Part shown: positions 4,608-36,241 of the stretch, in pieces | Layout of the letters: every line of letters starts with the position of its first letter | Numbering within the stretch: position 1 is the stretch's first letter | NCBI GenBank assembly: GCA_002205965.3 | Contig: NADL03000002.1 | Location: 682,001-746,000 of the forward strand | Direction: 5' to 3' | DNA length: 64,000 nt | Source: Kappaphycus alvarezii | Lineage: Eukaryota > Rhodophyta > Florideophyceae > Gigartinales > Solieriaceae | The notes under the pieces: model-generated | What the model was told of the DNA's origin: nothing | The model's input: the letters and a program-made list of their open reading frames with translations, nothing else | Databases searched by the model: none | Program-made: the position numbers and the translations under genes

Positions 4608-5032
4608 AGAAGCCGAAGGATGATGAAAAGGTCGCCGTTGTTCAGGAATCTCGAAAACAGGACTTTCTAAACCGCCGCGAATAGAAATGTGGACGGGCAG
4701 GCACTTCCGAAACAGAGGGGGGAAAACTTGATGGATCTTGACGCCATCTTGAGCAAGGCTCCTGGTAATCGTCCACCGATGATGGCCCCCGTCCCAAGAA
4801 GAAAGAACAAGAGCCGGAAACCACAAGCCTAAGAAGAAATCCGGTGCACTCCAGGATCATGTAGAGAAGTCAACGTGATCGCTGAACTGGATTCCTCTAC
4901 ACAGGGATGAAATTCGGGCAACTATTGCGCGGGATCCGAGTAGGCCAGAAAGGTTCTGAGGAATATTTTTATCCAAGAGGATACCGGTTACACAGGCATC
5001 TATGTCAATCTCCAGGAGGTCCACACCGACTC

Positions 5033-5290: not shown

Positions 5291-5814
5291 AGGACCCTGA
5301 CGCACTTTGATTATGCGCTCCAGTACGTCACTTTGGTTATAGAAGAAGAGGAGGTTTTATTACCATTCGTCAATGAGCCGTCGAGATTCAATAAGGCTCA
5401 GACGGAAAGTGAAAACTTTACGTCTCCCAAAGGTTCGGACGATAAGGAAAATCTCGACCTTTTCTCGTTGTCTAACGAAAGCGATGATGGATCGGTACCG
5501 ACCAAGACCTGGTCTTAGGCACCATTAACAAGGAACCGTACGAGCCTGACCTACCTCGCTCAGCAGATATTGAATTTAAGAAGAGGTAAAAGTGGAGGTG
5601 AACCGCTCGGCTCTATTGGCCTCGAAGGTGGACCACCTCGAAGAGAAGAATCAGAAGGAGCTGGCAAAGCATCAAGGATACGGATGTCATAGCTTGGGAA
5701 TTCAAAAACTGGAGCCTGCTCAAGTACCTGTTTTTCATTCTTCGATTTGATGAACGAGACTCCGATACATTCGAAAGCACACCAAATGCAGCAGAGGCAC
5801 AACTAAGTAGTAAG

Positions 5815-6990
5815 GAACGAGGTGAAGGAGTTATTGGAAGCTGAAATTATTACGCCGTCAAGGTCCGCCTGGTCCTTTCCGGTAGTGATAGTCACGAAGA
5901 AAGACGGAAGGCCGCGGTTCTGCGTAGACTACCGTCAGTCGAAAAGGGTGGTGAAGCCAAACCGCTGACCGTTATCGAAATAAGAAGAAATATTCGACGA
6001 ACTCCCTGGCGCAGAGTTCTTCACAACATTGGACCTTTAGACAGGATACTAGCATGTTAGGATGTCCAAAACTTGCAAGGAAAAGACGACATTTGTCTCT
6101 CGATATGGAACGTAAAAGTTAGAGTTAATGCCTTTTGGACTCATAAACGCTCCAGCGACGGTTCAAAGGATGATGGACGAGGTCCTTCGCGGGTTACCGT
6201 TTGCTATGGTTTATGTCAACGATGTTGGTATATTCTTTAAGAATTTGGAGGAACACATAGCTCATTTCAAAGAGGTGTTCAGGAGGATCAAAGAATCGAA
6301 GCTGAAGCTGAAGGTAACCAAGTGCAGCTTTGCTTAGTCAGAAGTAAGTTGCTCGGTCACATGGTCAATTCAGGCGGTGTAACGGTGGATCTCGATAAGA
6401 TCAAAGACATTGCGGAAGCTCCTGTGACGGAAGGAAACGGAACTCAGGATTTTCTAGGGCTCGAGCAGCACTATCGACGGTTCATAAGGTGGTTTGCCGA
6501 CAGCTCAGCAGTGTTAAACGCAGCGGTGTCTGTCGAAAAGGCTTTCGAATGGACTCCAGAGATGCAAGAGGCTTTTGAATACCTGAAGAAGAAGCTGACT
6601 ACCCCTCTAGAATTAGCATTTCTGGATTTCACTTCTCCTTTCTTAGTGGAAACAGACGCCTCTTCGGCAGCCCTGATGGTGGATCTCTCGCAGAAGAAGA
6701 AGAAGGGACAGTAAATACCATTCAGTTCGCTTCTCGAACGATGACGGACCAGCAGCGCCGCTACTCCACAAGTGAAAGATAAGATCTTGCAGTGATTCTC
6801 GCTTTTAAGAAGTTCCAGGTGTAATTTCTGCCCTAAAAGCCTTTCGTCGTCTATACGGATCACCAAGCTCTTCAAAACGCGTTCAATAAGAAAGATATTC
6901 ACTGGGGATTGGCAAGGTGGATGGATTTGACGGCAGAATACGACTTCGAGATCAAGTATCGTCCGAGTCTGGCGAATGGGGCTCCGATTG
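5815..6990 (+). pseudogene. Gypsy reverse transcriptase and RNase H remnant
   Basis: The fingers region reads VVIVTKKDGRPRFCVDYRQ (about 5880-5940). The palm reads MPFGLINAPATVQRMMDEVL (from 6128), and the catalytic box is YVND at about 6211, with the first Asp of the usual YVDD/YIDD replaced by Asn. The tether domain follows in a shifted frame (6322-6714). The RNase H start LVETDASSAAL lies at about 6643, and YTDHQALQNAF at about 6855. At least four frame changes and several stops separate these blocks, so no polymerase can be made from this copy. Confidence 0.85.
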
Positions 6991-7183
6991 TCTCTCGCGA
7001 CCTAACAAGAAGACGGAAAGAAGAAACGATGAGAACAAACAGAAGGATTGGTAGTGACAATATATTGGACAGGCCTAAAGTTGGAAGGTTTGGAACCGCA
7101 ATTGCTAGATGTAGCACGGTTACGAGACGGAGAACGAGTTCGAGAATCTGACCTGAAGAAGAAAAACGCAGTCGGACGGAAAG

Positions 7184-7580
7184 AGAAGAGTTTCATGCTC
7201 TGGAACGAAACCCTATTTCGTCGCGAGAAGGACGGACTCCGTGTCGTGCCTCCGATGGGCCAACATTCAGAGACAATGACCACCGTTCACGATGATATTG
7301 GCCACCAGGACGTCATTTCAACAAGAAAGTTCGTGAGAGACCGGTTCTGGTGGCGTGGGGTGTACCGTGACGTCAACGAGTATGTACGAGGTTGTGATGG
7401 GTGTCAGAATCCGAGAAGGTTGCCGACGTCTCACTCGAGTCTGAGAGCTCCCGTTACTGGACTTTCGGGACCTCGATGGACTTCGCTGGACTATTCGAGC
7501 CTTCGAAGACTGCAAAAAAATTTATTCAGATTGCCGTGGAATATATGACTGGGTGGCCCATAGCGTGGCCCACAATGAGT
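7184..7580 (+). pseudogene. Gypsy integrase, truncated
   Basis: The HHCC zinc-binding domain is visible: HDDIGHQDVISTRKFVRDRF, then CDGCQ, at 7288-7410. The start of the catalytic core lies one frame over, including MDFAGLF and VEYMTGWPIA (7478-7564). The core stops there. The second and third acidic residues (DDE) and the C-terminal domain are missing, and a purine-rich tract and the 3' LTR follow within 25 bp. An internal deletion removed about two thirds of the integrase. Confidence 0.8.
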
Positions 7581-7589
7581 GGAGGGGCG

Positions 7590-7743
7590 TGTCCGCGAGT
7601 TTGGTGTCGCGCCAACTCCCAGCGTCGCCGTCTGATTGGACTGGGTCGCTCGTACAGTGTACAGAGATATTGTACACTGTACGGGGACTGTACGCGTGTA
7701 GAAACCCCGGACCGGCAGCCCCTAAAAGAGAAACTTTACTTCA
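7590..7743 (+). repeat. Gypsy 3' LTR, internally deleted
   Basis: Aligns with 3468-3692 from its TG start to CCGGCAGCCC, then jumps to the terminal TAAA..GAAAC..TTCA. The right arm of the LTR hairpin and about 60 bp are gone. The purine tract AGTGGAGGGGCG immediately upstream (7579-7589) is the expected polypurine tract. Confidence 0.7.
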
Positions 7744-7749
7744 TTGAGT

Positions 7750-7800
7750 ATCTATCGTGTACTGTACTGTACAGTACTGTATGTAATGGACACACCCTTA
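7750..7800. repeat. TACTGTAC palindrome cluster
   Basis: CTGTACTGTACAGTACTGTA (about 7760-7780) lies between the gypsy 3' LTR and the Harbinger element. Further ATACTGTACT occurs at 7852. It belongs to the dispersed GTAC-core palindrome family. Confidence 0.6.
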
Positions 7801-7899: not shown

Positions 7900-8202
7900 C
7901 GGATTTTACCCAATTGCAGAAATGGACACGGTGATGTGCCAAACTGTCCTGTGGACATTTTCTGCATTCGCTGTGGACAATATCCTGTCTTCCTTTTGGT
8001 GTAGAAATCCCTTGGGACATGCCATAGAAAGGGCTTGCCGCCAAATGGCAACCAAACCCAAACACCTCACAAACACTAGACGGTGCCGCCATTTCCGGCT
8101 CCAAGGAATGTTTATCACGTGAATAGATACTTATTCCCCTACATAGCTTCTATCGACACCGCTTCAACAACGAAAAACTCCGCAATCCAGAACCAAACAA
8201 TC

Positions 8203-8925
8203 ATGGCGGAAGAACTCACACAACGCGATGCTGTTGATAGCTCTAGGATTACTGGAAGTCCTCCCAGAGCACATACGCACTACAATTCCGCATCAGAAGT
8301 TCTTGTTTCCCCAACCGAAATCAACGACGAGGCCGCCTGCATCGTCCAAGACATTTGTTCGGATCCAGTAACAAAGACGCCTAAAGACACTGCACATTAC
8401 GACAATGATACTGTCAACATTCTGTTTGACATGATGGCAAAAGCTGGGTACGGTGACCGGAAGAAGCAGAAAAAGTCCTTAAAGGACGTCTTTGCTGAGG
8501 CTACCATGTTAGCTGAAGCGGAGCACGGAATAAACCGGTCTGCCAAGGCATGGCAGAAGAAGTTCACAAGAATCAAACAGGAGTACACCGCTTTTGTCGC
8601 CAAGCTCTCCGAGTCAGGACGGGACGCGGACGATGATGGTCTTTTCAACACTCCTGAGTTTTTCGAAAGGATGCACGAATTAGAAAAAGGCAAAGCGCGC
8701 CACGACCCTCCCGCCGTGCTGTCCACGGAGGACGCTAGCCTCATCAGTGACGCTCCGCTCTCCAGTTCCCGGAAGCGTGTTAAACTCAGTCATACGGCTC
8801 TGATAGAATCCTTTATTCAATCTCAGGACGAACGTCATTCCCAGCTTATTAGCGAGATTCAGAAGGGAAACGTCGAGAAGGCCAAATTGCGCAATGTGCT
8901 GGAACGTCTGGTCGATAAGCTTTAG
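8203..8925 (+). CDS. Harbinger Myb/SANT-like DNA-binding protein
   Basis: 240 codons. The chosen ATG (ATCATGG context) opens MAEELTQRD; an upstream in-frame extension looks non-coding. The conserved block is residues about 66-150: a helical, tryptophan-containing segment (KAWQKKFTRIKQEYTAFVAK) and an acidic DDDGLF stretch, as in the Myb/SANT-like ORF1 of Harbinger elements. A basic SSRKRVKLSH (about residue 188) could be a nuclear signal. The C-terminus is a charged helix suited to dimerisation. In the family this protein binds the transposase, carries it to the nucleus and recognises the element ends. It is convergent with the transposase and overlaps it by 77 bp. The family call rests on context plus domain look. 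Confidence 0.75.
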   Translation: MAEELTQRDAVDSSRITGSPPRAHTHYNSASEVLVSPTEINDEAACIVQDICSDPVTKTPKDTAHYDNDTVNILFDMMAKAGYGDRKKQKKSLKDVFAEATMLAEAEHGINRSAKAWQKKFTRIKQEYTAFVAKLSESGRDADDDGLFNTPEFFERMHELEKGKARHDPPAVLSTEDASLISDAPLSSSRKRVKLSHTALIESFIQSQDERHSQLISEIQKGNVEKAKLRNVLERLVDKL

Positions 8926-9955
8926 ACAGTATTCTCGTTCTCTGATAACTTTTGATGACGTAATAAAGTAGGGCATCCCTTTGACGCTTACCTGCGTTAC
9001 TCTCTGTAGAAATAATTTCATCGTCAACTTCTTCATCTTGAGGTAGGAATGAGTCTTCAAAATCCCCTTCATCGATCCCCATGTTGTGTATAATCATACA
9101 AGCCAGGCAAAACCTTGAAATATCGTCCTCATGGTGAAGGCGTATTCCTTCTTTAAGGGCGTGGAACCTATTCTTCAACATTCCGAATGCGCACTCGATT
9201 GGTTTCCTCGTCTGACTGGCAATAGAGTCCCACGTTTTCAGTATAGGATTAACTCCCTGTTCCCTTTGTGAGGATGTCTTCATCATGTTCTGGTCGAGGG
9301 AAAAGGCACAATCCCCAATCAAGTATGGCCTTACATCAACTTCAGAAATTGTCAAACTCGGTATTGCATTTCCAAGCCACACACCTTTGTCTATGTTCCG
9401 TTTCAATGACGCGGGAAAATATTGTGGAGTCACCGAGAACGCCCGGTCGACGATGTCTGCGTAAATAAACTTCCGTTTAGAGGTAGCTACAGCAAAGATG
9501 ACCACACTTGGATACCCCTTGTAACATCTGTACTCATAGTACTGCTCGTTTGGGCACGAAAGCCACTTCACATGCGTCCCATCGATTGCTCCGACGCAGT
9601 ACGGCAAGCCTCGGATTCCCTCGAAACCACGCATGACCTTCGCTACATCTTCTTCGCTTGTCGGGAACTGTAGTTCATGACTAAATATGTCACAAATACC
9701 AACGGAAGCCTCCCACAGCAGTGCATACTGAGCTGGCACCAATGCCAAGCTGGCAGGCTGTCTTTTCACAAGTCGCCCCCCTGCGTACATGAGAAAAGCA
9801 GCAGTTCTCAGCTCTGAGCTTAACGGTTGTCTGTAGTTCGTCGGTGCTCGCTCCAAATAGGGACGAAGGGCGTTGCATAGTTGCATAAACATGGTGTGAG
9901 AAACACGGAATAGGCTGCGCCAGGATGACGAATCACGGAAATTAGGGGACAGCAT
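8849..9955 (-). CDS. Harbinger DDE_4 transposase
   Basis: 368 codons, close to the usual 350-400. It carries the DDE triad in the expected blocks. The first Asp is in YCVGAIDGTHV (about residue 143), the second in LIGDCAFSL (about 214), and the Glu in RKPIECAFGMLKNRF (about 251). The typical IIHNM follows at about 287. Residues 1-60 form the helical N-terminal part. The frame just upstream (9942-10172, starting MGDHSSSLRSK and ending RNLKSWLTS) looks like additional N-terminal coding sequence joined by one frame change, so the true protein may be about 75 residues longer. It cuts and pastes the element as a nuclease. The final 40 residues overlap the convergent Myb gene. Confidence 0.9.
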   Translation of the reverse strand: MLSPNFRDSSSWRSLFRVSHTMFMQLCNALRPYLERAPTNYRQPLSSELRTAAFLMYAGGRLVKRQPASLALVPAQYALLWEASVGICDIFSHELQFPTSEEDVAKVMRGFEGIRGLPYCVGAIDGTHVKWLSCPNEQYYEYRCYKGYPSVVIFAVATSKRKFIYADIVDRAFSVTPQYFPASLKRNIDKGVWLGNAIPSLTISEVDVRPYLIGDCAFSLDQNMMKTSSQREQGVNPILKTWDSIASQTRKPIECAFGMLKNRFHALKEGIRLHHEDDISRFCLACMIIHNMGIDEGDFEDSFLPQDEEVDDEIISTESNAGKRQRDALLYYVIKSYQRTRILSKAYRPDVPAHCAIWPSRRFPSESR

Positions 9956-10207
9956 AGCTCGTGAGCCACGATTTCAAGTTTCTTTCACGGCTCCAAGCGC
10001 GACCAGGAGTTCCGCTGCGCCCATCGGACTTCAGCAAAATTGGAACGGCTGCATCGGATTGTTGTGCGGCAATTGCAGCCATTGCGGTATCATCTTCGTC
10101 GGCAATTAATGGAACTATGGCTGCAATGGCAGTCGCGAGCTTGCTTCGCAACGATGAAGAATGATCTCCCATTCCCGCGAAAAAGTGGGGTTGACCCTGT
10201 CCTTTCC

Positions 10208-16027: not shown

Positions 16028-16640
16028 GGTAGACGTGTACTATACTACAGTATATCGTACTGTATAGTACACTGTACGGTAGTGCTGTAATTTTTCTGGT
16101 CATTCATATTGTACTGTACGTTTCAGCCCGCTTCCTTACAGCAATGTGCTGCATGTGGTACAGTGCTGTACAGTACAGTACTGTACTGTACGGACGAGTC
16201 AGACTACAGAGCTGATGCAACGTACAAATTGTGTACTGCACCATTGTGCCTTGCGTCTTCTTGTACGGTGATGTACCGTATGTACAGTACAGTACAGTAC
16301 TGCGACTATGCTGGGTGTGTACAGTACAGTAAAATGCAGTACAGTAAATATCTTTTTGTTGTTGTTACGTCGCTTACCCAACAATCAGGAATTTACTTGA
16401 ATTTCCTGATTCTCTGCAGTGTCGGTGATTAGGTTGGGTACTCTAAATCCTATGTATTTCACGGTACAGTACTGTACTGCAAAATACTGGCTGTGCTCCT
16501 TGCCCTTTTGGATTCTTCACTCAATTATGTTAACAACGCTGCATCGGAAACGTGTAACTATTGCCTACATGTCTGATTGAATGCTGTAGTATGTTATAGT
16601 GTACTGTACACCACGTTAGTACTGTACGTCCCACTGTATG
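16028..16640. repeat. Dense TACTGTAC/GTACAGTA palindrome array
   Basis: About 600 bp packed with GTACAGTAC-type words: ACTATACTACAGTATATCGTACTGTATAGT (16038-16068), GTACAGTACAGTACTGTACTGTAC at about 16160-16190, then 16281-16340, 16463-16480 and 16595-16630. Units are imperfect and joined by unique sequence rather than a clean tandem array. It fills the shared upstream region of the divergent F-box/LysM and DCP1 genes, so the units may act as promoter elements. Confidence 0.75.
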
Positions 16641-16975
16641 CAAAACTGGAAAACTTCCAAAAAAAAAAAAACGCGCTAAAACTCATCGCAGAAACCAAAG
16701 AAAAACAGTAACCCGTCGCCGTTTGAGCTGCCTCGGTTATTGAATCATCATACCCTGTCACTTGAGCGGTACTCCGACACACACCCGGAAACCCTTTCCA
16801 AGTTATCAACACTTCACTCCAGAGCTTCAACCCTTCTTCCCTCTGTCCCTCCTCCTTCACACAATCAACACCTATCCACTCCACCCCTCTCCAATCTCGC
16901 CCTCCCTGCACACTCGTTTCTCCCATTCCCATCTCCGTCCCTTTTCTCACCAGTCTCCAAAATCACGACGTATCT

Positions 16976-22502: not shown

Positions 22503-22722
22503 GGTTCTGTGGCATTTTGCGGAGGAGATGAGCGGGGAATGGGTAATTCGTGAGGAGGACGACGTCGACGACGGCCGGGATGCAGTGGTTCACGACCAAA
22601 GTTTCTGATAAAAACAGGGGATTACTACCATGTGCTTGGTTTGGAATGGCAGCTAATTTGTCAGCTGTGCTCTGTTTTCATAGCTATACATAATTTTACT
22701 GTACTGTACTATACTGTACTGT
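22503..22722. other. PDCD2-like upstream region ending in the copia target
   Basis: Ends with ACTGTACTGTACTATACTGTACTGT (about 22697-22722), a palindrome-family array in which the first copia element inserted. No gene. Confidence 0.6.
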
Positions 22723-23255
22723 TGTTGAGCATATGCGCAGACACGCAAGTAACACATAACCAATCCGGATTGCAGAAGCGCGGATCTGGAGAAAGCAGTG
22801 CACCAAAGATCGCATGAAAGGGACACACAATTCAGTACGCAGGATTGAGCACAAGCGACCGATGCAGCACTATGGGTGAATGCATACCAACAGCAAACAT
22901 GAGCGTAAGGCATGAAGGAAAGCTATAGCAAAGCGGAAGGCAAGCAGAGCAATGGGATGCAAGCGAGGAAAGCAACCAAAGCGCACACAGACACGGACTG
23001 GGACGAAAGAGCAATATAGCGTAAGTGAATGCAGAGCGGAACAGGCAAGGGAATGCAGAAGCACAAACCATAGCGGTAGTGATTAGAACTCTACATAAAG
23101 GGTTAGGAATAGCGGCTGACCGAGGAAAGACGGGATAAGCACGCCGGCAACTTGATGCCGATTAACATTGCCTCCGCTCACCTCTACCCTCTGCTATCCA
23201 ACAGTACCGCCATTACAGCTATCTCTTTTTCCCCTCCGCAGCCGGCCAATCAACA
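22723..23255 (+). repeat. Copia element 1, 5' LTR
   Basis: TGTTGAGCATATGC to CCAATCAACA. CTACATAAAGGG (about 23091) is a possible TATA-like box, followed by GGAATAGCGG and a small hairpin, CGGC-loop-GCCG (23145-23160). This block is conserved in the other copia LTRs here and would lie near the transcript start. Confidence 0.9.
23145..23160 (+). promoter_or_regulatory. Conserved LTR hairpin (element 1)
   Basis: CGGC, loop AACTTGAT, GCCG. The same stem and an ACTTG-type loop occur in the 3' LTR (28504-28519), in element 2 on the other strand (30026-30040, 35141-35155) and in the LTR relic at 28804-28818. GAATAGCGG lies 20-40 bp upstream each time. Confidence 0.6.
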
Positions 23256-23258
23256 GTT

Positions 23259-24574
23259 ATGGGCCCAGAGGGTCTAGAGTCTCCAGAGAGGCGCCTTCTC
23301 CATGCACCTCGTCTAGCGCCGAATAAGGATAAGTACTACTATCGGAGCGATGTGAGAATGTGGATGAGGCGCGTTCGAGTATTCGCAAACGGGGGTGACA
23401 GCAGAGCAAAAGGCGTGGCAAATGGGCTGGGCCACACGTTGCATGCGGCAATGGATCTATGTTATCGACGAGTACTCGACGCCGAGATTCAGGATGGGCG
23501 TATAGTGCTCGACTCGGAAGATGACATAATGTCTTTTGAGGACCAGAAAAGGGTTGTTGAACAGATGCTACTTGCAGTGGCTAAAGACTCCCCGACGGAT
23601 GCTGCAAAGAGGATGATCGCGCTCGGGCGCAAGGTATTCAGTTGTCGCAGGTTTAAGAATGAAGACTTTAGAACGTTCGCAGAGCGATTTAGGGGTGTTG
23701 CCCAAGCTCATATGAACTGTTTTCGGCACGTTCCTACTGAGCAGGAGAAACAACAAACTGCACTAATAATATTGGAGAACTCCCAATTACCTGACACTAT
23801 TTACAACAATTTGCTTAGCTTACTGATTGCCAAGAAAGATGACAACCCTTGCATGACGGGACAAACTGCAGCCTCTTTCTATGTCGAGCATGCAAACGTG
23901 GTCAAGAATGACATATCGCAGATCAAGATGCATTAGGCAAGGTCATAGATAACCGCAAATCATTAGAGCAGGGTATCAAGACAGAATTAGAGTTGGCTAT
24001 GACATCTCTCAGTCGCATTGAAAGAACTATCACAACAGCTGGATCTCGAGCTAACAAGCGGGGAGAAAACGACGAGATCAATTTTACATTTGGACTTGAC
24101 GACGCAATTGCAGCGCTTAAGAACATTAGGTCAAGTGAAGTCGACTCAAGCAGACGCAACTACAATTATGATCACACAACTCGCAATGGACTTCAAATTG
24201 GATCAATGATGGGCAGCGGCTACCAATACAACGAACAAGTGGACACCGACCACAACAGCAGGTATATTACCCCGGGAACGGGCGCGAAGGTAAATACAAG
24301 ATGTCACGCGTGCAATGGGATTAACCACTGGGCCGGCGACCCACAGTGCCCACTTTACGGCAAAGGTCGCAAGGACTCCAGGATAGCAAAGCCCGACAGA
24401 GGAGCACACACTGAAAGCAGCATTGACTTGCGCAACAGAATCACGACGAACCGGAACGGCTATGGATCTAACCAGGCTAAAAGCGTCAAATTCAGCGGCA
24501 ACCATAACCCAGACAGGCAAGAACACGCTCAGCGCAGCAAGTCACTACCGCCGCCGCAGTTCCTTAGCAATTAA
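23259..24574 (+). CDS. Copia element 1 Gag
   Basis: Starts MGPEG, overlapping the PBS. The capsid part (23259-23936) has a charged, helical pattern including DPSTDAAKR-like and EQEKQQTALIIL segments shared with element 2 Gag. A -1 frame change near 23925 joins it to the second part (23993-24574), whose nucleocapsid knuckle is CHACNGINHWAGDPQC (CxxC, H, C spacing), then basic. It would coat the RNA genome and form the particle. Compared with element 2 the same domain order and the same knuckle plus CPLYGKG are kept. Confidence 0.8.
23260..23272 (+). promoter_or_regulatory. Copia primer-binding site
   Basis: TGGGCCCAGAGGG, 4 bp after the LTR end, is identical in element 2 (35018-35030, minus strand) with the same spacing. 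It would pair with a tRNA ending CCCUCUGGGCCCA. It is not the TGGTATCAGAGC initiator-Met type used by most plant copia elements. The gag ATG (23259-23261) overlaps its first bases. Confidence 0.65.
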
Positions 24575-24578
24575 GCAC

Positions 24579-26119
24579 ATGGAATATTGTAACCCGGTCT
24601 ACGACCCGGGAGCTCCGCGCTCCATAGGAGGCATCAACGATGCAGCCAGATTCTGCGATGTTACGGAAATTGATCTATGCGTATTGCCGCTCCAGGAACG
24701 GTACATGCACGGTTGGGGGGAGGCTTGTCATGACACAAGGCCAGTGGTCGGTACTTGGCAGATTACTGTGTTAGACATAAACTCCAAACCTTGCACCCTT
24801 TGCTTCGACTTAATTGAAGGGTGCTCGGTACTGGTAGTAGGACTCGATGTCGCCAAATACTCCACACAGGATAACAGGTCGGACACATCAACGTTGCAAA
24901 TACAGAGACCAACAGACAGATCAACCAGAGTGTTTAACACTTACATATCTGAGGACAAAATGAACCCAATGGTGGAGAGAATGCGTATAGAACTTCTACC
25001 AAGAGCTACAACATGCATCAATAGCCTCATGTCATCGCAGCTACAGAGCTCCGCAAGAAGGGACCCAAGGGTATTCGCCAAAAGAATTCACAGAGCAACC
25101 CACGCCACGCTGGCGCAAGTTAAGGACCTCTGCACACAAGAGGATGTCTGGAGCCCGGAGCTGCAGCGTGCCGTGGAAGAAGTGAATAATGCCTGCGACA
25201 TATGCGCTGGGTCCGGCAGGCCTCAACCCAGCAAGAAGGTGTCCCTCACACACGTCAACCAAGCATTCAACTCGGAGGTGCAAGCGGACCTTTGTTTTGC
25301 GCATGTGAAGGGTAAAAAGTGCACTATATTTCTTGCTACAGACACAGGCACAGGACTTTCGGAAGGGGGAATTACAGCCTCGCAAAACGTGGATACCTTG
25401 TGTAAGCTTTTGGAGAACGCATGGGTCCTGAGGCACGGCGCACCCATCGCATTTTCTTCTGACGATGAGTACAATCGAGGATCGTTACGAAATTGCATGG
25501 ATATGAACAGCATAGCATTTAAACCACGACCGACACGGCGTCACAACAAGACAGGCATCATCGAGCGGAAAGTGCAAACTGTCAAGTCGGTCATGGCGAA
25601 GCTCGATAAGGAAACATCGAGCGGGGATGCCGACGATGTCGTAGCCCGAGCAATATTCCTCTTAAATCTCTTCTCAGGCTCTAAGCTACTTAGCTCCTTT
25701 CAGCTTGTGCGTGGATACCAGCCCTCCGTCCTCGGTATCCCCGCCAGCAGGGTCCCACAGTCACTACTTGATGCACACATCGAGCAGACGGCAACTCGAG
25801 CACTGCAGCGGGCATTACATACCAACCTACCCAACACACCAATGCTGCAGCATATCAGGTCGGTGATGATGTCTGGGTGTGGTACTCATCTTCCAAAGGC
25901 AACAAAAGGGATGAATGGATCAAGGCAAAAGTAGCACACTTGTACGATCACTACATGGAGGTCCGTCGCTACAGCAATGGGAAGCTCGCCCGAGGACCCC
26001 TCATGCGGCCAGCATACGAGGACCTCAGACTCTCCTCACAGTCTGCACTCACCGAAGAACTGATGAAGAGCACGATCGCAGATGATGATAGCAATTTAGT
26101 GGACGAGGGGGAGAAATGA
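24579..26119 (+). CDS. Copia element 1 protease and integrase
   Basis: The protease active site reads YDPGAPRS where element 2 has YDTGSPRS. The D-T-G triad has become D-P-G, probably inactivating. The integrase zinc finger is split as HRATH (about residue 220 of the long frame) and CDIC. Catalytic residues are the Asp in QADLCF, the Asp in FSSDDEYN and the Glu in GIIERK, followed by an SFQLVRGYQPSVLG block. A -1 change near 25880 leads to a C-terminal part with VWYSSSKGNKRDEW and MRPAYED. Integrase inserts the cDNA, and here it apparently chose an ACTGT palindrome centre. Confidence 0.8.
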
Positions 26120-26317
26120 CAGGAAGCAATGCGACTCGTCAACCAAATGTCAACACACTCATGTCTACGCAAAGCAGAAACGAGCATGACACATGCGTAC
26201 TAGACGTTGGGATCAATGCGGCAGTGGGACCCAACAAAGATTACAAGCAACTCAGCCAAATGATGCCCGCGCGATATTGGGAAGAGCCACACAGAACCTA
26301 GTAATGCACCACAACCG

Positions 26318-27976
26318 ATGCAGGAACTCGAATCCGATAAAGCTCGTGTACTTGAAGACATCTACCAGCAAATAGGGTCAAGGCAAGTCACTAAACGAGA
26401 GATACAATTTGCACCATCTTGGATTACGGATCAAGTATACAGGAAAGAATTCGACGATAACTGGGCGACAGCATTCCAAGAAATCAACGAACATGAGCTC
26501 GATACAGACGTTAACGTTATACGTTCGCATGTGGTTTACAAAGTCAAGACAGACGAATCAGGTACGAGGAAACTGAAAGCATGACTCTGCCCACACGGGA
26601 ACGAAGATGACGAGAAGGATAAAATACGGAAGGACTCAGCGAACGCCCAACTTAGTATCGTGAGACTGCTACTTTCGTTGGTGACATTCTTGGACTTCAT
26701 GGTCTGGACAGCCGACATTACAGGTGCGTATTTGCAAAGTGGACCCATAAGGAGAGCATGTACGTAAGACCACCACGGGAGTGGCACCACGCGAATTGCT
26801 ACAGGAAAGGGGTACTATGGAAACCCCTAAAGCTCCCTTATGGATAGTCGAGGCAGGACGACAATGGATGATCGTAATCGAGGAATGGATGCTGAATGAC
26901 GGTGGACTAGAGCACGTATTCGGCATAAGCCAACTCTTTGTCAGAGGAGACGATTCAGGGAAAATACGACTGCTAGTAGCGAAGCTCACTGATGACTTCT
27001 TGGCAGCAGGACTGAAGGAGGACTTGGATAGGTTCTTCGCGAGCATGCAGCAGCGGTTTGAGATCGGGATGATAAACAAAGGGTCTCAATTCGTATTCGG
27101 CGGATGCGAAATCAGAGTGGAGCGCGACGGAAGCATACAGCTCTCCATGTCAGAGTATTGGAAGTGCATAAAACCCATCACACTGACAAGGCTTAGACGC
27201 AAAGCAAGAGATTCAATGGCCACAGCTGCAGAGATACAGCAATACAGAGCATTAGCAGGAACACTTCTTTATCTCGGGAATGGTACATTACTGCAGGCAT
27301 CTTACGTGGTGTCATTGATGCAGCAACGAGTCAATAGACTCAAAGTGGAACATTTGGTCAAGGCGAATACCATGTTGGCGGAACTACGTAACCTAAGCTC
27401 TACAGTGCGCTACCCAAAGGTGAGAAATGCGACAAATGTTTGCCTGTTTTCACTATCAGATGCATCGCATGCAAAGGACCGAGAATACGGCCAAAGCGGG
27501 ATATTGATCGGCATGCTGGCCCGCAGCGGGGTCAATGGCAAAGACATATTTCACTTGGTAGATTGATCATCCCATAAGCAGCACCGGATCAGCCATTGTT
27601 CGTACGGTGCAGAGATTCTTGCAGCAGCCACAGCAGACGACAGGGGCTATTATATGAAAGAAGCTATCAACACGCTATTTACTCGAACGCCAGTTAGACA
27701 TGATTGAACGTCGACTCGAAGGGTCTATGGGATACTATAACTACACTGCATGAAGGACGAGAGTATAAGTTGAGGCAAACCGTGCAGCGTATCAGAGACA
27801 GCTTTGAAAGTGGTGAGACTAACGTACTGCGATGGATGCCAGGCCACATGAACATATCTGACGCACTCACAAAGTTTAACCCGCAAATGTATAGGATGTT
27901 AGACAAGGTCTGCCTCACTGGACAACTCAACCTCGAACTGGAATGCGGGAAGATGATGGATAGTGAAACATGGTAG
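26318..27976 (+). CDS. Copia element 1 reverse transcriptase and RNase H
   Basis: The RT fingers region lies in 26318-26584. The palm D is in TADITGAYLQSGP (about 26710), followed by VEAGRQWMIVIEEWML. The catalytic box is AKLTDDFLAAG (about 26980), with L-T-D-D in place of the usual Y-V-D-D. Element 2 has KLSDDFL at the same place, so this is a lineage trait rather than damage. RNase H starts LFSLSDASHAK (about 27450), continues with SYGAEILAAAT (about 27600), then VDSKGLWDTI and WMPGHMNISDALTKFNP (about 27835-27880). Several frame changes interrupt it. Confidence 0.8.
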
Positions 27977-28068
27977 CGGCCTGATCTGAAACAAATCAGA
28001 CATGCAACAGCGAGCACATCAAGCGCCGACGGAAGCATGAACGAGTCGTCTCTGCAGAAGCTTTGAGA

Positions 28069-28081
28069 CGACTGGGGGGGA
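28069..28081 (+). promoter_or_regulatory. Copia polypurine tract
   Basis: GACTGGGGGGGA directly before the 3' LTR TGTTGA. Element 2 has GACTGGGGGGG at the equivalent place (about 30316-30325, minus strand). Confidence 0.75.
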
Positions 28082-28613
28082 TGTTGAGCATATGCGCAGA
28101 CACGCAAGTAACACATAACCTATCTGGATTGCAGAAGCGCGGATCTGGAGAAAGCAGTGCACCAAAGATCGCATGAAAGGGACACACAATTCAGTACGCA
28201 GGATTGAGCACAAGCGACCGATGCAGCACTATGGGTGAATGCATACCAACAGCAAACATGAGCGTAAGGCATGAAGGAAAGCTATAGCAAAGCGGAAGGC
28301 AAGCAGAGCAATGGGATGCAAGCGAGGAAAGAAACCAAAGCGCACACATACACGGATTGGGACGAAAGAGCAATATAGCGTAAGTGAATGCAGAGCGGAA
28401 CAGGCAAGGGAATGCAGAAGCACAAACCATAGCGGTAGCGATTAGAACTCTACATAAAGGGTTAGGAATAGCGGCTGACCGAGGAAAGACGGGATAAGCA
28501 CGCCGGCAACTTGATGCCGATTAACATTGCTCCGCTCACCTCTACCCTCTGCTATCCAACAGTACCGCCATTACAGCTATCTCTTTTTCCCCTCCGCAGC
28601 CGGCCAATCAACA
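28082..28613 (+). repeat. Copia element 1, 3' LTR
   Basis: 532 bp, nearly identical to 22723-23255. Seen differences include CCAATCCGG against CCTATCTGG, CAGACACGGACT against CATACACGGATT, and one missing C near 28531. Confidence 0.93.
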
Positions 28614-28692
28614 ACTGTACAGTAAGTGAACACTGTAACGGTTCAGAAAACATGAGTGAACTTATATACTGTACTGTACAGTACTGTTGTAA
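28614..28692. repeat. Palindrome cluster between copia copies
   Basis: ACTGTACAGTAAGTG (right half of element 1's target) and ATACTGTACTGTACAGTACTGT (28667-28687). No gene. Confidence 0.7.
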
Positions 28693-28990
28693 CAGTTCTG
28701 AACTCTAGAGGCCCGCAGGGAGGTGTTAGTGCTGTAGGTTTAGCTCACTGGTATTTTGCTGCAGAGGGAAGAGTCTCAACGGATTGGGGAAGGCAAGGTG
28801 ATTCGGCACAAGTCGCCGGCGTGCTGCCTCTCTCCTCCCTCAGGTCAGCCGCTATTCTAGAGTTTATACAGACAATCAACAGTCCTCCCTCGATCTACTC
28901 ATCGCTAATTGCTTTGCCATTGCTACGGCCATTGCCATTGCCATCTCGCCAGCTGCATTCATAGTCTCTGCATTCCAATGTCATTCCTGA
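28688..28990 (-). repeat. Third copia LTR relic
   Basis: Begins TGTAACAG immediately after ACTGT. It contains TCGGCACAAGTCGCCGGC (28803-28820) and CCGCTATTCTAGAG (about 28849), the same block as in both full copia LTRs, then GCATTC words as in element 2. The far end could not be fixed. It is a solo or truncated LTR in the same orientation as element 2. Confidence 0.55.
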
Positions 28991-29914
28991 ATCATGCCCA
29001 TAAATGCTTGCGTTCCGATCAATATGAGTCCGCCCGTGTAGCTATGCTGCGATAGTTCTCCTTTGCTCCTGCGTTCGCTCTTCAGCTGTGCTCCCCGCGG
29101 TCACTCTTCCAATGCGTCTGCATTCACCATGCTATCCTGATAACATTCAAGGCGCCAAGTATGCAGTGATTTCATAAGCCTATACGATCATACGTTGCAA
29201 ATGAGCGCGTTTCAAGCTCGTACCCTTTAGCTTCTGCCCTTTCATGCCGATCGATGCATTCTGTAATCTGGATCTACTGTATGCTGTGCTTTTGTAGTGC
29301 ATTCGCGTGTCCATTCAACTTTACAGCGTTAGAATTTCTGGTGTCTATCCGACCAAGCACTGTCCTCATATGAGGCACACTTTGTCCTCATATGAGGACA
29401 ATTTCCGTTACATTTGGAAAGGCAAATGTTTTGGAAGCCCGAAATTTTTACTGGAAAAAAGGTTTATTATGTTCAGTTACAGTACAGTAATTTTTACTGT
29501 ACATGCGCCCTCGTTTCTAAACCCCCACGATAATACAAACTATGTTTCCTTCCAAAATGAAGCCGTTTTCACAACTTCTTGCGAAGCGGAAGCTGGTGAG
29601 GGAAAACTGGTCTAGCCTTCACCGAGGTCAACAATCTTGAAAAGTTTGTTTTGAATCGGAACTAAACTAATGCGGAGGACAAGAAATGCGCTGAGGTAAA
29701 AAAATTTGTATTGAAAAAGAAGTGCTAAAAGTAGTCCTCATATGAGGACAACGGTCCAATAGACACTAGGTATTGTACAGTTTGTACTGTAAGAACAGTC
29801 GGGGCCCGTGAATGGCCTGCAATGATTTGTGCCCTAAATTGCCAAGTGGTAGTACTGCTGTACAGTAATGTGAGCCAGGTAATACAGTGGCTACCGTCTG
29901 CTGTACTGTACTGT
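28991..29914. other. Spacer between copia elements, with palindromes
   Basis: No gene recognised. It holds CCTCATATGAGG palindromes at 29363-29375, 29383-29400 and 29734-29749, palindrome-family words at 29478-29500 and 29862-29914, and homopolymer runs. It ends in TACTGTACTGT, the left half of element 2's target. Confidence 0.55.
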
Positions 29915-30315
29915 TGTCAAGTTCTGTGATAGACTGGAAAGCCACCACGCTTGATTGGTTAGCTGATTGGAGAGGGGTAGGAATCGCTCGGATATAAGGG
30001 GGTTACAGAAGAAATAATGGTCGATCGGCACAAGTCGCCGACCGGCTGCCTTCCCCATCCTAGGGGAAGGCCCGCTATTCTATCCTTTAATACTCACGCG
30101 CGCTACCTCGCCGACTCTCTGCTGGCTACATCACATACTTTGCATTCGCGCTGCGCTACATTGTTTTGACCGAATGCACTCCTGCATTCGTTCCCCCCTT
30201 TGTCATTGTGAATAGCGGCGTTAACTTCCATTCAATACATTCCAAACACGTAAGCTTGACCTTTGGCTACCCTCTCGCCACGAGTTACAGCTGTCAATCA
30301 ATGACATAACTCACA
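29915..30315 (-). repeat. Copia element 2, 3' LTR
   Basis: On the plus strand it reads TGTCAAGTTCTG to ATAACTCACA. It contains the shared hairpin (30026-30040) and CCGCTATTCTATCC, and several GCATTC words. The polypurine tract (plus-strand CCCCCCCAGTC) follows at 30316. Confidence 0.88.
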
Positions 30316-30559
30316 CCCCCCCAGTCGCCAAAGCTCCCATGCGTTGCGACTCTCACTTGAGGTTCTCACTGCGATACATTCTCACCTAGAAATCACGTCT
30401 TCGTGTGGCTACCAAATCCTTATCCACCATCTTTGTTCCGTCCAAATCGATACCCAGGACCCCCGACGTACATGTCTTGTTTAATCTCTCCTACATGTTC
30501 ATGTTCCTTTTCGTGAGAGCGTCAGCGAGATTGTCGTGTACCGGGATCCAACGTATGAT

Positions 30560-31760
30560 GTTGGTTTCCTTGCTCTCGAAGCTGTTTCTGATACGCTGCA
30601 CCGTCTGTCTCAACCGATACTCTTTGCCTCGTGCAAAGACGTAATAGTATCCCACAACGCCCTGGAGTCCACATTCAGTTCAAGCTTGACCGGAGTCGCT
30701 GGAAATAATGTGTTGATCGCCACTTTCATGTAGTAACCACGATCATCTCCAGTCGCTGCGGCCAAAATCTCAGCTCCGTATGACAATGGCTGATCCGGTT
30801 CTGCTTGTGAGAGCTCCAATCGATGACATGGAATATGTCTGACCTTTTCTTCCATGACGAGCTAACATCCCGATTACTAACCCGGTTTGCCCGTAATCAC
30901 GGTCCCTCGGATGTGCCGCGTCTGATAACGCATAGTACTACGTCATGCGGGCTCTTGACGAAAGGATATGTGATTTGTGGGCTCATTTCCTGAGGTCTCT
31001 AACCATTTGATTTGCCTCGACCAAATGCCCCCGTCAGCCTTCCAAGCTTCTGTTGCATTAAAGAAACGACGTATGACGCTTGTGGCAAAACGACATTACC
31101 CAGATACAATAGGGTCCCAGCTAAACTCCTGTATTGGAGAATCTCCCGAGCGCTCGCGAGCGCGCCCCTATCTTTCTGCGTGTCCGTGTCATACTGATTC
31201 TTTCATAAGCTTCCAGTATGTATCCATGACAATCGCACGCTTCCGTCCTCCCTGTGTTCGATGTCACAACCGCCGAATGCGTACCATTAACGATCTTACC
31301 TACTTTGAATCTTTCTCGAAGTCTCGTCATGAAATGATTAATATCGGTAGGCTTACCTGCGACCAAGAAGTCATCACTCAGCTTGGCAACCAACAGCAGG
31401 ATCTTACCTTCATCATTCGTCGAACGAACAGCTGGCTAACCCCATACACTCTCCTCATACCTTTAGCCGTGAGCATCCAATTCTCGATGGTAATCATCCA
31501 TTGCCTTCCCACCTCCACGATTCGTATGGTAATTTGGTGAGTCCAGAGTATCCCCTTTCCTGCGCCATAGCGCATACACCATTCCTTTGGAGGTCTTACG
31601 TAAATATCCCGATCTATTGGACCGCTCTGTAGATAGGCGCCTTTGATATCAGCAGTCTTAATATTGAATTGGAGGAATGTCACTAGGCTGAGCAATAGAC
31701 GGATAATAAAGTTGAGCGTTAGCGGAGTCCTTTCTTATATTGTCCTTCTCCTGGTCTGGC
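30560..31760 (-). pseudogene. Copia element 2 RT and RNase H remnant
   Basis: TADIKGAYLQSGPIDRDIYV (about 31610-31670) is the palm motif with the catalytic Asp. VEVGRQWMITIENWML follows, then KLSDDFLVAG (about 31370), the lineage's variant catalytic box. RNase H remnants SYGAEILAAATGDDRGYYMK and VDSRALWDTI lie at 30640-30790. Many stops separate the blocks. Confidence 0.7.
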
Positions 31761-32157
31761 CTTTAGCTTTCTTAGACCCTCTTCGTCTGTTTTAACCTTA
31801 TAAACGACGTGCGAGGTCAGGATATTAGCGTCGTCAGGAACTTCATTTTCTCTACCTGTGTATATGCATCTACCCAATTGGACGAATGCTCGGAGTCGAA
31901 AGCCTCATCGAGGATCCAAGCGGGTGCGAACTCAGCTTATGACCTGATACTTGCTGCGATCCTACCTGCTCATGCATTTGATCTAATATCATTGGCTTCA
32001 TCGACTCCAGCATCTTAGAAGTCTCCGAGGACCGACAATGTCGGACAGTTGCCGATCGATGTCCATTCTCGCGTGTTTGTCATCAACTGCCATCGCTTTG
32101 TCCGCTTCGAGGATCCCCTTACTTCATGCGTTCCTTTTGCCGCGCGAATGCCTGTGT

Positions 32158-33788
32158 CTATCTCGTCTCTGGATGTACCGAATGTGAGGGTTGCGATATG
32201 AGAGCGTTGACGTCTGTCGTAGGCGTATGTGCATCGCCATTCTCATCTATATTCTCCCCCCTATCCGCCTTAATACCTAGCTTTTCTTCAAGGGAGCAGC
32301 TCATTAATTCACGTGCGAGTTTCGAGCTTGGTGCGAGGCTTACATCCTCGTAAGCGGGCTTCATAACGGGACCACTTGCAACGACCCCCCCTTAAGAAGC
32401 CTAGCTTCCATATAGTATTGATGCGTCCGCTCAACTACAGCGGGGAACCATTCGTCCCGTTCATTCCCTTTTGTAGAGCAATACCATATCCAGACCCAGT
32501 CACCTTCCCTGTAGACGTGTTGTGTATTGAAATTTGAAGCGTTACTCTTCATCGCCCGTTGGAGTGCGCGGGTAGATGTTTGACTCCACATGTGCATGTA
32601 GCAGCTCCTGCGTGACAACTGAGGACAGGATACCCAAGATAGATGGTTGATAGCCGCGCACGAGTTGAAAGGAGCTCAGAGTGCGTGAACCGGAGAAAAA
32701 ATTGGAGAAGAATACCGCCCGTGTAAAGATCTTATCCGGTGTGGCACTTGATATCTTTGCATCGAGTTTGCGGACGATGCTCTTGATCGTTTGAATCTTA
32801 CGTTCAACTATGCCCGTCTTGTTATGTCGGCGTGCGGGCCGGGCCTTAAATACTATGTGATGAGCCTGGAGCGTAGACCGTAGGGGGCGACGATTATATT
32901 CATCGTCTGTTGATACGGATACCGGAGCTCCGTGACGCATAATCCAACACGCTTCGAGGCATGAAATGATATTATTCATGTCCTTACGTGGTGTAAGCAC
33001 ACCTTCTGTAAATCCGGTTCCAGTGCCCGTGATGACAAGCAGTGTACGTATCGCTCCTTGTATGATTTCATAGACGAAGTCGATTTGTACTTCCATGTTG
33101 AAAGCCTCATTGACATGAGTCAAAGAAATCTTTCTACTGGGAGCCGGGAGTCCGTTCCGCACACATATACCACACGATTCATCGACTGCGTCTATCGTTT
33201 CGGCTAGCTTGTCCGATAAAATACCCGCTTGGCGACACATGCCCTTGATTTGTTCTGGGGTGCATGGGTGAGACGATGGATACGTTTAACGAATACCTTA
33301 GGATTGCGCTGTGATTTGACCTCCAGACTCGTAGACGTGAGTGCGTTGACGTGGTTTTGATACGAGGCGACGATACGAATACGCATCCGTGGGCTTTGCG
33401 GGTCGTTGACAGAGGCGGCGATGTATGTCTCAAACGTACGGGGCGAAGTGTCGTTGGGACGTTTGAAAGATATGAATGAAGGTGTTGAGATACAATTCTG
33501 TATGGAATATTTACCGACATCTAACCCGGTGATGATCGAGGAGTCTCCAGGTAGGAGGTTGAACACGAGAGTACACGGATTCCGCTCCAAGTCAAATATG
33601 GTTATTTCCCAAGTACCCAAGACAGGCTGCGGGTCGAGACCATGTTCTCCCCATCCGTGTGTTCTGTCGCAATCTGTAGGGGTGACGGCAAGGTACATCT
33701 CAAGCAAATCACACAAGAGAGTGGCATTGTCGACACAAGCAGTTGAACGAGGCGAACCTGTGTCATAAATCGGGTTAGGGTCCCTCAT
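32158..33788 (-). pseudogene. Copia element 2 protease and integrase
   Basis: The protease keeps the canonical active site, IYDTGSPRS (about 33760). The integrase finger is HRLTH and CGIC. The catalytic Asp is in VQIDFVY, the Asp in VSTDDEYN and the Glu in GIVERK, then SFQLVRGYQPSILG. Frame changes near 33240 and 32600 split it. The C-terminal part (32361-32618) has VWIWYCSTKGNERDEW, and a final KPAYED segment runs to 32158. Its integrase made an ACTGT duplication like element 1. Confidence 0.75.
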
Positions 33789-33801
33789 GATGGCCAGGCT
33801 C

Positions 33802-35031
33802 CTAGTTCCTGAAGAAGCCGTTTTCTCCGTTGCGCTGGTTATCCGACTCGTCGGAGCTCTCTTCTTCTGTGTCCTCCGACTTTATGAAGCGAACCTTCTT
33901 ATGGTGCGCCTTGCCATTCGGTGATTCCTTGCGACCGTTCTTCTTGCGACCACTTACACCTTTGCCATATAGCGGACAGATTCTGTCCCTGGCCCAATGA
34001 CCAATTTTACCACATGCCGCACACCTCGAGTTTTTGCGACTGTTGTACCCATGATCGCGGCCTTTCCAACTTTTCTTAAATTGCGGACCCTTCGAGATCA
34101 TGAGATTGCTTAGTGCTTTACGCGGTTCCGTATCCGGGACTGGCTTGGCTGCAATCTCGTCCGACCTTATCGTCTTCAGGGCGTCTATAGCATCTTCGAG
34201 ATCAAAATTCAGGCGTGTCTGGTGATCGGGATTCCTCGCTTCAATCCGCCCGACCATGTTCATTACATGATCTTTCACATGGTTCAATTCTGTGTCGATC
34301 TTGTTTATGGCTATCTCGAAGGTTTCCGGTGATATGTCTCCAGCCAGTTCTCCAACCAACACATTCGAGGTATCAATCAAGTCCAATATGAGTCTCAGTT
34401 CGGAATCCGACACTATTCCTGTTTTCTCGCTGTCTGATTTGGTGTCGTCTGCCTTATTGACCATGATAGTAAGTAGATTGTTATAGATCGAGTCCTGCAG
34501 TGCTGCATTGTCAAGCAGGACTAGAGCAATCTGTTGCTTTTCCTGAGTCGTCTGAGTATGTGCGAAACAAATCAAGTGCTCCTGTGCGGCGCCTCTGAAT
34601 CTCTGCGAATTCTGCATATCCTCATTGGCTCTGCGCTTGCGGTTGAAAACCTTTCTGCCGGTTATGATGAACCGTTTTGCGGCGTCAGTGAATGAATCCT
34701 TAGCGACAATAAGAAGAATCTTTTCTACAATTTCCTTATGCTGAGCGTATGTGAGACATTCTTCATCGTCCGTGGGTCCAAGATTGAACCTGCCTAGCAT
34801 GAGTTCTGAATCGATAACCTTCTGGTACGCGTTGTCCATGCTTGCATACAACGCATGTCCGTACCCATTGGACGCTCCTTTCGCTTTGGAGTCTCCTCAG
34901 TTAGCGAACACTCGTACTCGCTGCATCCACATACGAAAATAGTTACGATATCTAAACTTGTCGGTCTTGGCGGTTAGACGCGGAGCGTCGACCAACCCGT
35001 AGTTCGAGGTCTCCTGGCCCTCTGGGCCCAT
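33802..35031 (-). pseudogene. Copia element 2 Gag
   Basis: Starts MGPEG inside the PBS as in element 1, then meets a TGA after RVRVFAN (about 34891). Beyond it the frame is open for 349 codons (33802-34851). The zinc knuckle is CAACGKIGHWARDRIC followed by CPLYGKG, then a basic and finally acidic tail. The TGA sits where element 1 has Gly, so it is a single disabling change or readthrough site. It is otherwise the best preserved part of this copy. Confidence 0.75.
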
Positions 35032-35034
35032 AAC

Positions 35035-35427
35035 TGTCAATTACTGTGATAGAATAGAAGCCACCACGCTTGATTGATTAGCGAGAGGGGTAGGAGTCGC
35101 TCGGATATAAGGGTTGGTTACAGAAGAGATAATGGTCGATCGGCACAAGTCGCCGGCTGCCTTCCCCCATCCTAGAGGAAGGCCCGCTATTCTATCCTTT
35201 AATACTCACGCGCGCTACCTCGCCGACTCTCTGCCGGCTACATCACATACTTTGCATTCGCGCTGCGCTACATTGTTTTGACCGAATGCACTCCTGCATT
35301 CGGTCCCCCCTTTTTCATTGTGAATAGCGGCGTTAACTTCCATTCAATACATTCCAAAAAGTACAGCTTGACCTTTACCTACCCTCGCGCCACTAGTTAC
35401 AACTGTCCATCGATGACATAACTCACA
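35035..35427 (-). repeat. Copia element 2, 5' LTR
   Basis: TGTCAATTACTG to ATAACTCACA on the plus strand, about 95% like the left copy by eye. Hairpin at 35141-35155. The PBS lies at 35018-35030, 4 bp inside. Confidence 0.88.
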
Positions 35428-36241
35428 ACTGTACAGTATTACTATGCTATAGCTATCGAACGGCAATATAATGCAGCCTTAACTACCCGATCGGGCGTGG
35501 GAGAAAAGAGTTCACTAGAATGGTTGATTTTAATCGGAAAATCAACCTTTCTAGTGGCTAGCTCTATTAAAATAACCAAATACGGGACTGCAACGGCATT
35601 CCGGGGGACTTTTGTACCCTTTCACTGTGCCTGCCCGTTTTCACTCCCCCACGCTGACACTACGCATACTACAGTAGGATAAACCGCATTACAGTAAAGA
35701 TGAAAATACATTATGTTAAATAATGTTAGAACAAAGGATAATATGTGAGCCTCTGCGCCAACGGATCGCTGAAGGGGGGACTGTAGAGCTAGGTAAGAAC
35801 AATTTTATGTACCAGTAGAGCCCTCTATCATTTTGGCGGGCATTCCCATAGAGTTAAAAGCTCCGTGACAACGAGGACTGTTATTTTAATACACTTAATC
35901 GAAAATATGTTAATTTACAGGAAGTATGAAACGTCATTCCTATACTCATTTAGTGGGATAGTGGCATCAGAGTCAATACGCAATTACAACAGATCATGAG
36001 CGGTGACCCACCCAAATTGGAAATGAATATGTCACTCTCAATTTGGGCGGTCATGATTGCATAAGATATCCCCTCTCCACAGAGGTGCCTTCTTGTGCAG
36101 TGCGCACACCCAAAAACTTTGTGCAAAGACCACAATCTACCATTTTCCAGGATAATGGTCCGAAGAAAATCTCAAATACCGCATCTCTAACCTCCTGTTC
36201 CCCTTCCAAGCCAAAAACACGGAAATAACGCCCTACGACTG
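35428..36241. other. Intergenic with two long inverted repeats
   Basis: No gene recognised. It holds the right half of element 2's target (ACTGTACAGTA, 35428-35438), a near-perfect stem at 35513-35556 and another at 35993-36057, plus TACAGTAAAG-type words near 35690. Confidence 0.5.
35513..35556. repeat. Hairpin-forming inverted repeat
   Basis: CACTAGAATGGTTGATTTT pairs with AAAATCAACCTTTCTAGTG around a 6-base loop, with one mismatch region. It may be the core of a small foldback element. No target duplication identified. Confidence 0.6.

Follow-up and report, generated by a model that had tools for sequence, protein, structure and literature searches.

How do two diverged copia-type long terminal repeat (LTR) retrotransposons come to lie in copies of the same short palindrome in the genome of the red alga Kappaphycus alvarezii? 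The question is raised by a 64,000-nucleotide stretch of assembly GCA_002205965.3 (contig NADL03000002.1, positions 682,001 to 746,000), here called the window, in which both elements are flanked by the same five bases. The copies examined here and elsewhere in the genome show an exact register of insertion, dyad symmetry, near-universal use of the site across three LTR families and five elements with distant integrases, use by the young element C732, and absence of the pattern from a gypsy-type family. We conclude that a copia-type clade very probably inserts at one exact place in the palindrome TGT^ACWGT^ACA (W = A or T; carets bound the duplicated bases), where staggered cuts 5 bp apart duplicate ACWGT.

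The two elements, with their open reading frames (ORFs), including reverse transcriptase (RT), are laid out in the window as follows.

22718-22722 (+), left target duplication of element 1, ACTGT, within TACTGTACTGT
22723-28613 (+), element 1, copia-type, LTR pair 98.7% identical
22723-23255 (+), 5' LTR of element 1, starting TGTTGAGC and ending TCAACA
23256-23270 (+), putative primer-binding site of element 1, GTTATGGGCCCAGAG, with the same bases beside element 2 and L065/L067
23259-23936 (+), ORF of 225 amino acids in the gag position of element 1, without Pfam match
24387-25934 (+), integrase ORF of element 1 (zinc-binding part and D,D,E core), with no Pfam match of its own
26751-27566 (+), RT/RNase H-like ORF piece of element 1, called by eye, with no Pfam match of its own
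28070-28081 (+), polypurine tract of element 1
28082-28613 (+), 3' LTR of element 1
28614-28618 (+), right target duplication of element 1, ACTGT, followed by ACAGTA
29910-29914 (-), target duplication of element 2, ACTGT on the forward strand and ACAGT in the orientation of the element
29915-35427 (-), element 2, copia-type, LTR pair 91.4% identical
29915-30315 (-), 3' LTR of element 2
32542-33285 (-), integrase ORF of element 2, 50% identical to that of element 1 over 229 residues
33204-33881 (-), ORF upstream of the element 2 integrase, the protease region by position, without Pfam match; by eye it resembles the N-terminal part of the integrase-bearing ORF of element 1
33802-34896 (-), gag-like ORF of element 2 with a zinc knuckle (zf-CCHC_6, E 0.00025, just under its cut-off)
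35020-35034 (-), putative primer-binding site of element 2, the same 15 bases as in element 1
35035-35427 (-), 5' LTR of element 2
35428-35432 (-), other target duplication of element 2, ACTGT on the forward strand, followed there by ACAGTA

These coordinates bear out the preliminary description in most respects. ACTGT stands on both sides of each element, and the empty sites rebuilt from the flanks both hold the 17-bp palindrome TACTGTACTGTACAGTA on the forward strand, its centre being the middle base of the duplication. The elements represent different lineages because their integrases are only 50% identical, so they were rightly held not to be one duplicated insertion. The span that had been given for the pair starts slightly too early: position 22712 lies in a flanking repeat, and element 1 begins at 22723.

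To this pair were added copies from the rest of the genome. A search with the LTR of element 1 gave 31 matches, 30 of them with loci, and one with the LTR of element 2 gave 40, again 30 with loci; these searches also brought in a third LTR family (L060-L068). An integrase search (2,469 candidates, 84 scored) listed 89 matches at 34% identity or more, from which five elements were pursued in newly retrieved sequence; a small number of the rest were copies already present in the LTR-search sample. Removal of duplicates and unreadable ends left 32 independent insertions, which together provide 54 copies of the duplication. At least one exact ACWGT copy was present at 27 of the 32, and ACNGT at 29. 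Among the 54 copies, 40 read ACWGT, five ACSGT and nine something else; in a stricter count, confined to LTR ends needing no judgement, ACWGT was present at 24 of 30 sites and in 36 of 48 copies. ACWGT was found in 8/8 members of family 1 and 4/5 of its relatives, in 2/2 of family 2 and 3/5 of its relatives, in 7/7 of family 3, and in 3/5 distant elements. These last, whose integrases are 36-62% identical to that of element 1, all five carry ACNGT. C732 lies within TACTGTACTGTACAGTA with ACTGT on both sides, and is young, its LTRs being identical over 515 bp.

As background we used 24 arbitrarily placed stretches (52 kb), in which ACWGT occurs 139 times, or at 0.27% of start positions, and GTACWGTAC at 0.029%. 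Against this frequency chance is excluded: the binomial probability of 40 ACWGT copies among 54 is about 10^-90, assuming independence. The preliminary description had proposed looking for unrelated duplications in other family members and for an insertion rate equal to the genomic frequency of the motif; instead, 27 of 32 sites carry ACWGT, and insertions fall at the motif hundreds of times more often than its share of positions would predict.

The same 5-mer at nearly every end could also mean that ACWGT belongs to the element ends, or that the copies stem from duplication of a few insertions. W, however, varies among insertions and agrees within one, being identical on both sides in 12 of the 13 insertions that have two exact ACWGT copies; ACWGT is thus the duplication and not part of the element. 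The sequence beyond the core differs from site to site, and three pairs with similar flanks (C750/C60, L013/L014 and L054/L058) were each counted once. We therefore give either version of this explanation next to no weight.

The remaining exclusions can be stated briefly. L009 and L011 are element 2 of the window. From the element 2 search we excluded L012 and L018 (internal on one side, with the opposite end not located), L014 (flank resembling L013), L027, L033 and L037 (ends ambiguous or internal), and L017, L019, L020, L022-L024, L028-L032, L034-L036 and L038, in which the match stops short of the LTR ends; among these short matches, ends were inspected for L019, L020 and L022. Of the ten element 2 matches without loci, the C595 pair alone was followed. 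From the element 1 search we excluded L044 (duplicating L043), L056 (the L054 copy again), L058 (flank resembling L054) and L059 (LTR start lost). The right end of C608:994k and the left end of C585 were looked for and not found. Three observations were made in passing. C60 and C750 hold the same LTR copy with identical flanks in apparently duplicated stretches, suggesting haplotigs in the assembly. C586:684123-700459 carries four same-strand integrase matches at steps of 5.1-5.3 kb, probably tandem copia elements sharing LTRs; a comparable pair occurs at C195:85546 and C195:90895. Finally, at about 1390-1430 of L058 two LTR ends in inverted orientation form a short palindromic fragment bounded by ACTGT and ACAGT, which looks like an insertion of LTR tips alone or the remains of a collapsed element; the left flank of L058 is like that of L054.

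Does every element of this genome land in the same way? A gypsy-type family with an Integrase_H2C2 domain, present at very high copy (150 scored of 6,558 candidates), served as control. Its 3' ends were first recognised from the point at which the alignment between copies breaks off, and afterwards from the end sequence that the copies have in common. Two of the first three stretches reached the 3' end, and only 3' junctions were read; of the next ten, two ran off the contig, three lacked an LTR end, one was unclear (L111; GAAAG if read) and four were counted, giving a total of eight with L029 and L038 included. The junctions read TGATC, TAGGC, CAACC, TAACC, ACCTG, GTATT, CATTG and CAGCT. None is ACNGT (27/32 copia-type insertions with ACWGT versus 0/8 gypsy-type junctions; Fisher test, p=1.7e-5), indicating that the specificity belongs to the copia clade and not to every element of the genome. 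This result also bears on the idea that insertion is unspecific, and that a genome full of the motif, or survival only in non-genic arrays, mimics targeting. The motif is indeed abundant, and arrays of it in the window give the impression of being non-genic. ACWGT nevertheless occupies so few positions, and the nine-base core fewer still, that abundance falls short; selection cannot explain a single cut position within a repeat; and the gypsy-type family in the same genome shows no such pattern. We consider unspecific insertion very improbable.

Several points weigh against a site-specific copia clade. The sample combines two LTR searches with five chosen integrase matches, and as a result most of its families are related. 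Some junctions in degraded LTRs were set by eye with the motif already known; these were removed in the stricter count. Five of the 32 sites lack an exact ACWGT (ACTGC, GTGGT, ATAGT, ACCGT and ACCGT), and the distant elements C802 and C608:994k carry ACCGT, so that W is a preference rather than a rule. The two duplication copies differ in 9 of 22 two-sided sites, probably through decay of old insertions; at C750 both copies are ACWGT with centres T and A, for which simple decay needs one change at the dyad. The gypsy-type control covers a single family, each copy contributes just one junction, and two of the eight are 85-91% relatives.

How much sequence does the site comprise? The duplication is immediately preceded by GT in 26 of 30 cases and immediately followed by AC in 23 of 24. 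One position further out, T(-3)/A(+3) outnumbers the opposite arrangement 39:11 at insertions, compared with 40:44 at background GTACWGTAC sites (p=0.0006). Beyond this the clear constraint ends: of the outer arms, 30 of 44 read ACWGT at insertions with the core, and 55 of 94 at background GTACWGTAC sites (p=0.35). The background of both tests is the window together with the 24 stretches, and includes a few flank sites of the window elements. The outer arms being no commoner than background, the 17-bp palindrome is not required, and we rejected it as the recognition unit. The preliminary description was thus right that both window elements sit in TACTGTACTGTACAGTA, but the unit recognised is shorter. 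The preferred site is best described as TGT^ACWGT^ACA, an 11-bp palindrome with its dyad at mid-duplication: a core GT^ACWGT^AC with a T/A preference at -3/+3, the longer palindrome mirroring the way in which the motif is arrayed in the genome. The centre position is not fixed: it takes A or T, and rarely C or G, hence the second common duplication, ACAGT.

The elements have the features of LTR retrotransposons: LTRs that start TGT and end CA, a 5-bp duplication, a polypurine tract and a shared putative primer-binding site, GTTATGGGCCCAGAG, which we take to match the anticodon arm of initiator tRNA-Met. Copia order, with integrase upstream of RT, is seen in the homologs P0003 and P0010, where the integrase is followed by Pfam RVT_2 (E 2.4e-18 and 9.4e-13, respectively), and in element 1, where the integrase ORF precedes the ORF that is RT-like by eye. 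The integrase carries an HHCC and D,D,E arrangement in which H178, C209, C212, D240, D298 and E332 (P0007 numbering) are conserved, presumably as zinc and catalytic residues, and a profile of the homologs matches retroviral integrase cores (best E 2.8e-5). A chromodomain or DNA-binding extension at the integrase C-terminus had been suggested as a feature to look for. No chromodomain appeared among the Pfam matches of the five homologs scanned, the long ones consisting of core, C-terminal stretch, linker and copia-type RT; the C-terminus of the element 1 integrase is unreadable in its ORF.

These results are consistent with a model in which the integrase complex itself reads the site. Two identical half-sites, TGTAC, would be recognised through the two-fold symmetry of the intasome, each of its two inner integrase subunits reading one, with a free W at the dyad. 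Staggered cuts 5 bp apart would then leave ACWGT duplicated on both sides. If reading is direct, strand transfer should occur at the predicted bases of the target palindrome TGTACTGTACA.

Alternatively, a host protein that binds TACWGTA might tether the pre-integration complex in a fixed geometry, the element choosing the tether and the host protein the sequence. TFIIIB, for example, positions yeast Ty3. Over-representation of the motif outside the elements, as expected of sites for an abundant DNA-binding factor, would fit such a tether, and the linker of roughly 150 residues between the C-terminal part of the integrase and RVT_2 in P0003 and P0010 could hold a tethering motif. Tethers, however, usually leave a spread of insertion positions, and here insertion is at the same base, exactly on the dyad, with clear constraint that stops about 3 bp beyond the duplication, as for intasome contacts. 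Drosophila LTR families likewise have palindromic motifs extending up to 3 bp beyond the duplication (PMC3276498). A host tether is on balance rather unlikely, and direct reading by the integrase complex accounts better for the fixed register.

Is such an element without precedent? Retroviral and LTR-retrotransposon integrases are usually held to be nearly sequence-blind, with weak palindromic preferences, and the preliminary description had noted that a sequence-specific copia would be unusual. Plant LTR elements overall show a slight palindrome preference only (PMC6911290). The rice copia Tos17 comes closest, with a 5-bp target site duplication (TSD) and a palindromic preference, ANGTT-TSD-AACNT, that places GT before and AC after the duplication; its consensus lies in the flanks (PMC6911290), whereas in Kappaphycus the duplication itself is ACWGT and nearly every insertion examined conforms. 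The Kappaphycus elements share the GT-TSD-AC flanks, a likeness in behaviour. Target motifs of Drosophila LTR and terminal inverted repeat (TIR) elements are similarly symmetric about the duplication, reach up to 3 bp beyond it, resemble one another within clades and typically hold least information at the centre of odd-length duplications; the LTR motifs are nonetheless AT-rich and some very degenerate (PMC3276498), unlike the Kappaphycus site, which spans 11 bp, is almost invariant at several positions and occurs in excess in the host. GalEa-like copia elements are a clade found in red algae, animals and fungi; fungal GalEa has TGT...CA LTRs and a 5-bp duplication (PMC5445492, PMC3587641). 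The available text leaves a target motif unmentioned, that of PMC3587641 containing neither 'target site' nor 'TSD', and the tRNA-Met primer site quoted in PMC5445492 differs from the putative one here. The diatom CoDi families are also algal copia elements, most with TG/CA ends, but their duplicated target sites are quite heterogeneous (PMC2806351). Among the papers listed in the literature search, none describes this motif or a copia target of equal strictness, and forms of the motif looked up in the text of 5.39 million open papers brought out a single, unrelated one; the 1,181 Repbase families recorded for the red alga C. crispus (Chondrus; PMC4455052) may include related duplications and lay outside the scope of that search. 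As far as it reaches, what is new is how strict the target choice is, the fixed sequence of the duplication and the host excess of the target; the palindromic architecture was already known. A natural clade demanding about nine nearly fixed bases could help to ask which contacts make an integrase sequence-specific, and a marine red alga so rich in the target bears on the way in which safe insertion sites become established between genomes and transposons.

That excess is substantial. The window holds 76 TACWGTA sites against 7.9 expected from an order-2 Markov model, bearing out the earlier remark that such palindromes are many, and 6 TACSGTA against 5.2. In the 24 arbitrarily placed stretches TACWGTA occurs 38 times (6.25 expected), 14 of them in the single stretch L077, and GTACWGTAC 15 times (0.5 expected). 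Genome-wide (336 Mb), TACTGTACTGTACAGTA occurs 1,569 times forward and 1,539 times in reverse, 3,108 in all, and its reversed, uncomplemented control not once. Such an excess, partly in short TA(CWGTA)n arrays, would supply many dispersed ready-made sites, in which the elements would land, and rarely in unique sequence. TACWGTA is absent from elements 1 and 2 (11.4 kb together), although coding DNA may lack it anyway; elements without their own target would be prevented from self-insertion.

Where do the arrays come from? We compared 299 non-redundant arrays, which are not a random sample, since most come from the window or from loci retrieved because of their LTRs or the motif; 232 have one unit, 37 two, 16 three and 14 four or more. 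CAG and CTG units are mixed in order (neighbouring centre bases AA 33, TT 32, AT 32, TA 20), and at single TACWGTA sites the 5-bp pattern continues weakly on both sides. Exactly two-unit arrays in the fetched loci are skewed, with AT (TACAGTACTGTA) 16 times and TA (TACTGTACAGTA) once, though both are palindromes. A dense cluster of arrays, perfect and decayed and of mixed CAG/CTG order, occupies 16092-16650 of the window. We considered a miniature inverted-repeat transposable element (MITE) with TACWGTA ends and rejected it: the flanks of 230 single sites share no conserved sequence beyond the weak 5-bp continuation, and when repeat boundaries were compared across the retrieved loci, the listed repeats having ACWGT close to each end were copia LTR matches. 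As origins of the arrays we weighed slippage, footprints of Tc1/mariner and growth driven by the elements, and none was demonstrated.

Tc1/mariner excision leaves TA-CAG-TA or TA-CTG-TA footprints, which copia elements could later have re-used as targets. The strongly favoured CWG centre (76 TACWGTA versus 6 TACSGTA in the window) and the intermixing of CAG and CTG units fit this origin, but it fails to predict the weak two-sided continuation at single sites and sits poorly with the skew of two-unit arrays; the retrieved loci showed no element with ends of this kind, the whole genome not having been searched for one. We see only a slim chance that it is correct. In a more speculative scheme, which is probably wrong, elements and landing pads would have built each other: once a copia clade was locked to TGT^ACWGT^ACA, each insertion, followed by loss of the element leaving both 5-bp duplications, would add one ACWGT unit, and integration would thereby have contributed to the thousands of TA(CWGTA)n arrays, a self-renewing safe harbour. 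If true, the retrotransposon would be making the very sites into which it inserts.

Further copies of the palindrome in the window, and a third relic beside one of them, are as follows.

7760-7776 (+), copy of TACTGTACTGTACAGTA free of any element
28667-28683 (+), further copy of TACTGTACTGTACAGTA between elements 1 and 2
28683-28687 (+), ACTGT immediately to the left of the third LTR-like relic
28688-29340 (-), third LTR-like relic, right end not placed, 29340 being the start of a MITE-like element
57002-57018 (-), copy of TACTGTACTGTACAGTA in reverse, free of any element

The third relic does begin directly behind ACTGT, as had been described, and its other end could not be placed; its orientation is suggested by a segment (28779-28828) that is 64% like one in the LTR of element 2. 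A small element at 29341-29767, with inverted ends GTGTCTAT(CC/TG)GACC and inner palindromes TCCTCATATGAGGA, has apparently inserted in or beside this relic. Elsewhere, the window contains an old gypsy-like element (3465-7721) with LTR-like segments of about 135 bp that are 83.7% identical, and, within 8083-9973, a Harbinger-type transposase ORF (DDE_Tnp_4) adjoining an opposite-strand ORF that looks like a Myb/SANT-like partner. At 61377-61985 lies a PH-domain protein whose nearest named relatives, 74% identical, are in the red algae Gracilariopsis and Agarophyton.

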